Part shown: one piece after another, positions 23,476 through 60,417 of the stretch
Position numbering within the stretch: position 1 is the first letter of the stretch
Layout: each line of letters starts with the position of its first letter
Assembly: GCF_000020005.1 (NCBI RefSeq)
Contig: NC_010718.1
Coordinates: 625,001-689,000 of the forward strand
Direction: 5' to 3'
DNA: 64,000 nt
Source of the DNA: Natranaerobius thermophilus JW/NM-WN-LF
GTDB lineage: Bacteria; Bacillota; Natranaerobiia; Natranaerobiales; Natranaerobiaceae
Made by a program: the position numbers and the translations under genes
The notes under the pieces: generated by a model
What the model was told of the DNA's origin: nothing
Seen by the model: only the letters and a program-made list of their open reading frames with translations
The model's database searches: none

Positions 23476-23882
23476 ATTGTGCGCCATGCATGACGATTAG
23501 CTAGGTGGTGTAAGTCCACTATGGGGGTTTGTAGTTACCAACCATTAGCCAAGAGCAAGGGTGCCCATCGTGAGGTGGGATCTGAAGGAAGCTTAAGGCA
23601 AAATTCCGACCCAAGGCACACGAACATCATCAGGCATAAGGTATGGGATGAGTTTGCAATACAAAACGAAGTCCAATCAACTACACGGACATACCAGTGT
23701 AAATGATGTGGGTACATGGAATGAAAGTTAATCGTCTTACCGTGGGAGGTCTCATGGACGTGGCAAGATGAACTTCGAACCACGGTTGAAATAAGATTTG
23801 TCATGAGAAGTCAGCAGATTCCATAGTACTTGATGAGGTCGACATCATTAAGGAAGGGATGAACCTAGGAGGAGATCAGTAA

Positions 23883-57661: not shown

Positions 57662-57976
57662 TTATAAAGGAGTGACTGATTGAATATTTAAGGCAATTAA
57701 TCTTTTCAAAAACAAAAAGCCCCAGATAGTAACTACAATTCCCTGTTCTGGATCGGTTAATTCAATACTTTTTTGGATGTAAATCGTATAAGGATGGATT
57801 TCTTTTTTAACGAAACCGTCTTTAACAGCTGGTTCTTTAACCTGGACCTCAGGTTCTAAAGTACCACTGCATCAGCCACCACTGTTCCTAATTAATCTAA
57901 TAGTCAAAGTTGTTATTCCTTTTTTATCTAAATATTTTTTTGCTTTATCGTCTATTTGTAAACGGTAATCACTCAT
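57662..57976 (-). CDS. HesB-like CC/Se-motif selenoprotein (in-frame TGA = Sec35)
   Basis: A 104-residue minus-strand gene with an in-frame TGA at 57874-57872, so it is missed by standard ORF calling. ATG 57976 has AGGAGG 7 bases upstream. The protein reads MSDYRLQIDDKAKKYLDKKG, then IRLIRNSGG-Sec-CSGTLEPE, ending VTIWGFLFLKRLIAL. Upstream and downstream are coding-like with a proper stop (TAA 57664-57662). NSGG-U-CSG resembles the GGCCSG loop of HesB/IscA-like CC/Se-motif proteins, in which Sec can replace the first Cys. A SECIS-like hairpin follows the TGA. Predicted redox or iron-sulphur function is inferred; the selenium machinery is not in the window. Confidence 0.82.
57835..57861 (-). 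promoter_or_regulatory. SECIS-like hairpin
   Basis: On the minus strand the sequence reads CTTT-AG-AACCTG-AGGTC-CAGGTT-AAAG: a 6-bp stem plus 4 outer pairs with a 2-base bulge and an AGGTC loop. GGTC in the loop and 22 bases between TGA and the loop match bacterial SelB-binding elements such as E. coli fdhF. Confidence 0.75.
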
Positions 57977-58295
57977 CAAATACCTCCTAGCTTTACTTCT
58001 CCCAATACCCTTACGTGGGAGAGTATATTGTCCTGTATTATAATCATATTGACTACTGATGTCAATTGATATAATTACTATTAACGTACTTCCACAGCTG
58101 AATCAGTGTGCTTTCTTGCTAATGCTCATATTTAAAAAGCAGGATTTAGAATAAACTTTGCGGAAAACTCCCCTTTGAAGCATCACTTATCCTATTGCTT
58201 CATTGAGGGAGTTTTTTTCGGTATAATGAAATAATTGGATTTATGTACCCAAAAATTAAAATTCACTACGTATTGATTAGTAAAGGGTGAAGTAT
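57977..58295. other. spacer with possible small RNA before sigI
   Basis: About 319 bases. On the plus strand, TTGACT (about 58049) and TATAAT-like sequence (about 58070) are followed by about 90 bases and the nested hairpin at 58164-58218. A short transcript ending at the hairpin is possible; no gene is seen. Confidence 0.35.
58164..58218 (+). terminator. nested hairpin, terminator-like
   Basis: Outer stem AAAACTCCC / GGGAGTTTT, inner TGAAGCA / TGCTTCA, then a seven-T tract. It ends about 80 bases before sigI, with no obvious gene upstream on the plus strand. Confidence 0.65.
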
Positions 58296-59096
58296 ATGGA
58301 GAAAAAAGACATACAACTTTTACAAAAGGCTCAATCAGGTGATGAACAATCTAGAGAACTTTTAATAACATCATATACTTCATATATCCAGGAAATAGCT
58401 TCAGGGTATTGCAATCGTAAACTTGTATGGGAAAATGATGATGAATTAAGCATTGCACTTTTGGCACTGAATGAAGCTATTGACAGTTATGATCTCAACT
58501 CAAATAAAAAGTTTAAGAACTATTTGAGAATGGTTGTTAAAAGTCGCCTAGTTGATTATTTTAGAACTGAAAAACGGCATCACCATTTACCATTGAGTAA
58601 TAATTTGGAAGAATCCAACACTGAATTAGATGAACCTCCTGATAACAAAATTGAAGATGAAGCTGCCTGGAAGCAATACCATCAACAAAAAGAGTTTCAA
58701 GAAAGAGTTGAAGAAATGAGTCAATTTGAATACGTATTACAAGAATATGGTTTATCTTTTCATGACCTCGAACAAGCATCTCCTAAACATCAAAAAACTA
58801 GGGATAAACTGGTTGAAGTGGCGAAATTAATTGCAGAGCGAGAAGATTTATTAAAATACATAAAAAAGAAGAAAAAATTACCATTAAAAAAGCTCATTTT
58901 GGAAACGGGAAATAGCAAGAAAGTGTTAAAACGAGGCAGAAAATATATTCTAGCTGTGACAATGATAATATCAGACGAGCGCTTTTCCTATTTGAGATCA
59001 CTATTTTCATTACCCAACAAATCATCTGAAAAAGCTCAAAAAGTAACTGAAAGTGGCTCTCCTTTGAAAGGGGATGAAGATAATGTCAAAAATTAA
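58296..59096 (+). CDS. sigI: RNA polymerase sigma factor SigI
   Basis: About 266 residues. Sigma region 2-like start (LLQKAQSGDEQSRELLITSY) and ALLALNEAIDSYDLNSNKKFKNYLRMVVKSRLVDYFR are SigI hallmarks; the C-terminal region 4-like part is Lys-rich. SigI directs genes for heat or carbohydrate-related stress in Firmicutes. ATG 58296 follows AAAGGGTG by about 5 bases; GTG 58287 overlaps the site. Translationally coupled to rsgI (14-base overlap). Confidence 0.92.
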   Translation: MEKKDIQLLQKAQSGDEQSRELLITSYTSYIQEIASGYCNRKLVWENDDELSIALLALNEAIDSYDLNSNKKFKNYLRMVVKSRLVDYFRTEKRHHHLPLSNNLEESNTELDEPPDNKIEDEAAWKQYHQQKEFQERVEEMSQFEYVLQEYGLSFHDLEQASPKHQKTRDKLVEVAKLIAEREDLLKYIKKKKKLPLKKLILETGNSKKVLKRGRKYILAVTMIISDERFSYLRSLFSLPNKSSEKAQKVTESGSPLKGDEDNVKN

Positions 59097-60417
59097 GGCT
59101 GTAGTTATTAAAACAGAAAAAAATTATATGCATGTTGCTACTGAAGATCGCAGGTTCTTGCGGGTTCCTATTCCAGAAAAGGGAGTAGCCAAAGGTGAGG
59201 AAGTTTGGATTGATCCTGAGAATATTCAAGAAGATAAATTTATAGATACACGAAATAGTGTGCCACCGTCTATAAAAAACGTGGTTTCTATTGCAGCAAT
59301 TTTTATGCTATTAATAATTTCTCCATTTCTCAGTGATTTATTTTTTGAATCTGATGAAGCTGTGGCTTATTTAAATGTGGATATAAATCCAGGTTTTGAG
59401 TTAGCAGTTAATTCTGATTACAAGGTTATCGAAGCAGTTCCGCTAAACGAAACAGCAAAAGATTTATTTCAAGAGATCCAGTTAGAAGATAAATATCTCA
59501 CTAATTCAATGAGTAAATTGGTCAATACAGCTAGAGAAAAAGGTTATATTTATGACGAAATGGATAATTTAATAATGATCACATTGGTAAATGTGGATCA
59601 GGTTAATCAAAAAGACCTAACTTCTTCTAATTATCAAAATTTAAGAGATGAAATTTTAACCGGGGTGGAAGACACTGAAATTACAGCTAATATTGCATTA
59701 AGGGAAGGGACGATGGCTGAACTGAATCAGGCTAGAGAACAGGGAATAACTCTAAATGACTATAAGATAAAAGCAGAAGTTGCTCACACCTCAGAAGGCC
59801 AAGTTGAATCAACAAAAGAAAAGTCCCAGGAAGAAATAGATCGGGAAAAAATGATCACGGAGTTACGGGATGAGGGTAGATCTGTTGAAGAATTATACGA
59901 TGAAGTGACTCAAATAGGTAAATCAACAACAGACACAAAAAAGCCAAGTCCCCCAGATCATACTCCACCAGGGCAAGATGAACAAAAACCCCCTGGCCAA
60001 AGAGAAGAACATCCAGGAAGATCTCCTGAAGAAAAACCTCCTGGCCAGGATGAAGAAAAACCTCCAGGTCAAGATGAGAACGGTCACCCTGGCCAAAGAG
60101 ATGATGATCATCCGGGACAAAGAGACGAAATACCGCCAGGACAAACAGAAGATGGACCACCAGGACATGAGAATGATAGTCCTGGAACTGACGAGGGATA
60201 TGACGACAAATCTCCTGGTCATTCTGAAGAGGGGCCACCAGGACAGCTAGAGCAAGAACCGCCGGGAGAACCCCCGGGACAGAACGATAATGGTCCCCCT
60301 GGGCAGCAGGACAACGGTCCTCCTGGACATCAGCAGGACAATGGACCACCCGGACATCAAGATGATAATCTTCCTGGAAAGCAGCATGAAAATGGTCCCC
60401 CTGGGCAAGGTGAATGA
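59083..60417 (+). CDS. rsgI: anti-sigma-I factor RsgI with C-terminal PPG repeats
   Basis: About 444 residues. N-terminal RsgI domain binds SigI; one helix (about 64-84) crosses the membrane; the outer domain contains NVDINPGFELAV, where the Asn-Pro bond is the known autocleavage site of RsgI. The last about 160 residues are an unusual low-complexity region of about 20 PPG(Q/H)-type repeats with Asp/Glu/Gln spacers, in place of the carbohydrate-binding modules found in other RsgI. It may act as a wall or polymer sensor. ATG 59083 lies 9 bases after AAAGGGG and overlaps sigI by 14 bases. Confidence 0.92.
   Translation: MSKIKAVVIKTEKNYMHVATEDRRFLRVPIPEKGVAKGEEVWIDPENIQEDKFIDTRNSVPPSIKNVVSIAAIFMLLIISPFLSDLFFESDEAVAYLNVDINPGFELAVNSDYKVIEAVPLNETAKDLFQEIQLEDKYLTNSMSKLVNTAREKGYIYDEMDNLIMITLVNVDQVNQKDLTSSNYQNLRDEILTGVEDTEITANIALREGTMAELNQAREQGITLNDYKIKAEVAHTSEGQVESTKEKSQEEIDREKMITELRDEGRSVEELYDEVTQIGKSTTDTKKPSPPDHTPPGQDEQKPPGQREEHPGRSPEEKPPGQDEEKPPGQDENGHPGQRDDDHPGQRDEIPPGQTEDGPPGHENDSPGTDEGYDDKSPGHSEEGPPGQLEQEPPGEPPGQNDNGPPGQQDNGPPGHQQDNGPPGHQDDNLPGKQHENGPPGQGE

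Follow-up and report, generated by a model that had tools for sequence, protein, structure and literature searches.

A divergent CC/Se motif family member with a predicted selenocysteine codon in Natranaerobius thermophilus

Background

Does a TGA triplet within a short minus-strand reading frame of Natranaerobius thermophilus JW/NM-WN-LF end the protein, or is it read as selenocysteine (Sec)? The question was raised by a sequence-only reading of the window (the whole stretch of DNA analysed here, 64,000 nucleotides of contig NC_010718.1), which proposed a 'hidden' selenoprotein gene at this locus. No publication on Natranaerobius selenoproteins came up in our literature search.

Results and discussion

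Reading frame

The elements on which the proposal was built, i.e. a ribosome-binding site, an in-frame TGA and a proper stop codon in one minus-strand frame, are all present (Table 1). The frame starts with the ATG at 57976, has the TGA as codon 35 and continues for 69 sense codons up to the TAA. Standard ORF callers had been expected to split or skip such a gene, and the plain caller output at the locus indeed consists of a 35-residue fragment only. The word 'hidden' is appropriate for plain ORF callers alone, because the family to which the gene belongs is already catalogued (NF041239); PMC13188914 lists it as a hypothetical protein, with Moorella thermoacetica as the species of the prediction.

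Table 1. Coordinates of the candidate selenoprotein gene and of further elements observed in the window
Feature	Position	Strand	Basis
CDS, predicted CC/Se motif family selenoprotein, 104 residues with Sec35	57662..57976	-	Reading frame; NF041239 match
Stop codon TAA	57662..57664	-	
In-frame UGA, predicted Sec35, motif NSGG-U-CSG	57872..57874	-	Cys/Sec site of family alignment
Bacterial SECIS-type hairpin (longer stem)	57830..57866	-	MFE fold; constrained fold; published bSECIS criteria
Core stem AACCUG-AGGUC-CAGGUU	57839..57855	-	
Apical loop AGGUC	57845..57849	-	
Ribosome-binding site AGGAGG, 6 nt before ATG	57983..57988	-	Sequence
Short 5'-UTR hairpin, CUCUCCCA/UGGGAGAAG	57977..58032	-	
Promoter-like TTGACA-17-TATAAT, sigma-70-type, 12/12 consensus positions	58037..58065	-	Consensus match only
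Inverted repeat ATTGAC-7 nt-GTCAAT, possible operator	58037..58066	-	
sigI-like sigma factor gene, then RsgI-type anti-sigma factor gene	58287..60417	+	Sigma70_r2 (sigma factor)
Group II intron domains D1-D4	23564..23859	+	RF02001, 141 bits; RF01998, 45 bits

Family membership

Read with Sec at the TGA, the protein reaches 46.2 bits against the NCBIfam profile NF041239 ('CC/Se motif family (seleno)protein', cut-off 40), which is above the cut-off by a modest margin; in the genome search the score is 40.1. The match covers residues 5 to 94 and runs across the TGA. Taken alone, the 69 residues past the TGA match the profile as well (E 2e-4), and for the 34 residues before it no match was reported. 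The Cys/Sec motif of the protein is GGUCSG, with a Cys adjacent to the Sec.

A search of 61 genomes (the window genome and 60 relatives) found family members in 20, and in the majority of copies there is just one TGA, at the site. In the family alignment, for which Cys was substituted for Sec, the TGA falls in a motif of the GG-U-C type and other copies have Cys at this place. Where the residue is not Sec it is Cys in all homologues but one, and never Trp; the exception (L039, 1501-1743, minus strand) is a family member that reads GTAGGP here, without Sec or Cys. The possibility that the sequence-only reading named as refuting its proposal, a recent TGA mutation in a pseudogene, is not borne out by the alignment of the translated product with its homologues, in which Sec or Cys is kept. 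The nearest relative (L028, from the same taxonomic family) shows 37% identity and has an SCU motif; when this is compared with the GUC of the window protein, U is aligned to U if no gaps are allowed, and CC to CC by BLAST. The genome contigs yielded no relative when scanned with the single protein, and no part of the broad alignment was conserved well enough to serve as a search query; with an alignment of three sequences the search obtained 7 named loci, among them Cys forms of Thermoanaerobacter. Genes of the family can also be neighbours: a Sec copy (SCU) adjoins a Cys copy (SCC) in L027 and L037 (G046:C17, 28912-29489), forming a natural Sec/Cys pair, and L021 and L035 (G039:C21, 6363-10096) lie side by side too.

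The motif given for the family is CxxU (PMC13188914), against UC in the window protein. Among 23 UGA copies (the window's included) the nearest Cys is found at +1 in 11, at -3 in 3, at -1 in 2, at +3 in 2 and at +4 in 1, with none within four residues in the remaining 4. Because of this variation the CxxU label fits only part of the family, and the variable position of the partner Cys is a modest new observation. Given that the family was already known, the gene is a new member of it, divergent and of low novelty. It resembles the family in length, in the profile match over the whole domain, in the Cys/Sec site and in the downstream SECIS-type hairpin, and differs from it in its low score, in having PEVQV for PAVxxG and in a hairpin loop of AGGUC where CGUGNNN is common.

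Predicted fold and relation to IscA/HesB proteins

The AlphaFold model (again with Cys for Sec, and based on 8 sequences) is fair, with a pLDDT of 76 and a pTM of 0.67. Its leading PDB matches are IscA/SufA proteins (Foldseek, probability 0.98-1.00, E about 1e-3 to 8e-3); among viral models, its best matches are iron-sulfur assembly proteins. PDB searches by sequence found nothing useful. A profile comparison with HesB/ErpA-type proteins yields 95.9% probability (E 5e-9, a value for this single comparison); in it, Sec35 falls on the conserved first Cys/Sec of these proteins. An IscA/SufA/HesB fold, with Sec at the position of the first cluster-ligand Cys, is supported as a model-based prediction. 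Of the earlier suggestion of a CC/Se-motif, HesB/IscA-like protein, the family assignment stands and the fold agrees as far as predicted; lacking the C-terminal CxC, the protein does not qualify as a strict IscA/HesB carrier. With the HesB-like selenoproteins (TIGR01911) it would share the predicted fold and an equivalent Sec position, although it has no UxGP motif, and the TIGR01911 profile itself has no match in the genome.

It might be argued that the protein nevertheless works like IscA, SufA and ErpA, as an A-type carrier of Fe-S clusters in which Sec supplies one of the ligands, an alternative that concerns its role and not the insertion of Sec. The matching fold would fit such a role, and so would the alignment of Sec to ErpA's first ligand Cys; moreover, no PF01521 match was found in the genome at E <= 0.001, so the genome may be without another such carrier. 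Unlike these carriers, however, the window protein has Sec35 and Cys36 as its sole candidate ligands in place of three ligand cysteines (in the scan of the relatives a CxC was seen once only, at the end of the partial match L042), and its Pfam Fe-S_biosyn score of 15.6 stays below the cut-off of 26.3. We consider a carrier role unlikely and, because of the absent CxC and the low Fe-S_biosyn score, prefer a predicted redox or soft-ligand centre over a classical Fe-S carrier.

Selenocysteine machinery and SECIS-type hairpin

The sequence-only reading placed the Sec machinery elsewhere in the genome and regarded a lack of selB and selC as fatal to the proposal. Both were found by the genome search, together with selA and selD, the selC tRNA-Sec having the anticodon UCA. 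In-frame TGAs are also carried by the genome's own selD (L012) and grdA (L052); past its UGA, the SelD gene has a stem of 8 bp that bears a GGC loop.

The stem and AGGTC loop that had been noticed just after the TGA were recovered as well. The core of the hairpin is contained in the MFE structure, and the extended form has -13.6 kcal/mol in a constrained fold. The published bSECIS model describes a loop of 3-9 nt with G in the first two loop positions, a stem of 4-16 bp, a spacing of 16-37 nt and an MFE <= -7.5 kcal/mol (PMC13188914); the window hairpin, with its 5-nt loop, a UGA-to-loop spacing of 22 nt and the energy mentioned, fits this description. Among the 2478 TGA triplets in the window, an equal open frame on both sides is seen for 10, an equally stable hairpin for 27 and both for 2, and under randomisation of synonymous codons 3.6% of the sequences form a hairpin that is as stable and has a G[GU] loop. 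By itself the hairpin is only moderately unusual, and therefore homology decides the case.

In the UGA homologues a hairpin is found 19-23 nt past the UGA in 18 of 20, most commonly as CCUGC-CGUGNNN-GCAGG (one of the two that fail the strict scan, L040, has by eye a comparable stem and a loop of 8 nt), and none of the six Cys homologues examined has a hairpin of comparable stability. Across 14 homologues 96.4% of the stem cells are paired, with double changes in 3 of the 6 pairs; the covariation score is 0.353 against <= 0.112 in slid controls, every one of which collapses. In the window the stem bases are partly different, as are the encoded peptide and the loop, yet the hairpin occupies the homologous place.

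These patterns bear on the reading in which the TGA is a true stop and the remainder a pseudogene in decay, descended from a Cys form. The support for translation past the UGA comes from sequence alone, and the homologues are distant (<= 37% identity among those aligned), which would leave some room for decay. Against this, the match to the family profile persists past the TGA, Sec or Cys occupies the site throughout the family with the TGA common to most homologues, the hairpin is kept in spite of the different peptide, and the genome has the machinery; such a pseudogene is highly improbable. Hardly any weight can be given to a UGA read otherwise than as Sec (Trp or near-cognate decoding, or programmed read-through). 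In favour of it, the frame is open whatever the TGA encodes; against it, the alternative residue in homologues is Cys (neither in L039) and never Trp, and the distance of the SelB-type hairpin is as it should be.

As judged from these comparisons, the internal UGA almost certainly encodes selenocysteine, in agreement with the originally proposed 104-residue Sec35 protein, for which homology, machinery and hairpin all speak.

Genomic neighbourhood

The candidate gene stands alone between a gene for a small membrane protein, which we take to be LapA-like, and the divergently oriented sigI/rsgI pair, whose RsgI-type anti-sigma factor has a C-terminal repeat rich in PPGQ. No shared gene context is apparent at L028, L045, L047 and L048, so the neighbourhood gives no function. 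The -35 hexamer of the full-consensus promoter lies within the inverted repeat of Table 1, and the energy of the 5'-UTR hairpin is not unusual in comparison with shuffles (z -0.86). Elsewhere in the window a stretch with group II intron domains was observed.

Proposed mechanism and conclusions

Taken as a whole, the gene very probably is a functional single-gene CC/Se motif selenoprotein, with SelB-dependent insertion of Sec35, a predicted IscA/HesB beta fold and a selenol-thiol pair. SelB carrying Sec-tRNA-Sec would bind the hairpin just past the UGA, and selenocysteine would be inserted at residue 35 instead of a stop. The resulting product may then expose the adjacent Sec35 and Cys36 on a loop between two strands, where the pair might act as a redox centre (a selenenylsulfide) or as a ligand of soft metals or chalcogens. 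Both the insertion in vivo and this biochemical role are what we infer from sequence and model. For the family at large, one might tentatively think of an IscA-fold lineage that has lost its cluster ligands, and in which the remaining Cys became a selenol centre whose thiol partner is mobile (-3, -1, +1, +3, +4) and whose activity is new, for instance the handling of soft metals or of selenium/sulfur intermediates; we put this forward as a possibility of rather low probability.

Summarizing, the analysis confirms a gene that is shortened by plain ORF calling, and a selenoprotein family of uncharacterised function thereby gains a divergent member. Within this CC/Se family the SECIS stem and the encoded peptide are seen to change jointly, and the predicted IscA fold with Sec at a ligand position offers a testable hypothesis on what the family may do.
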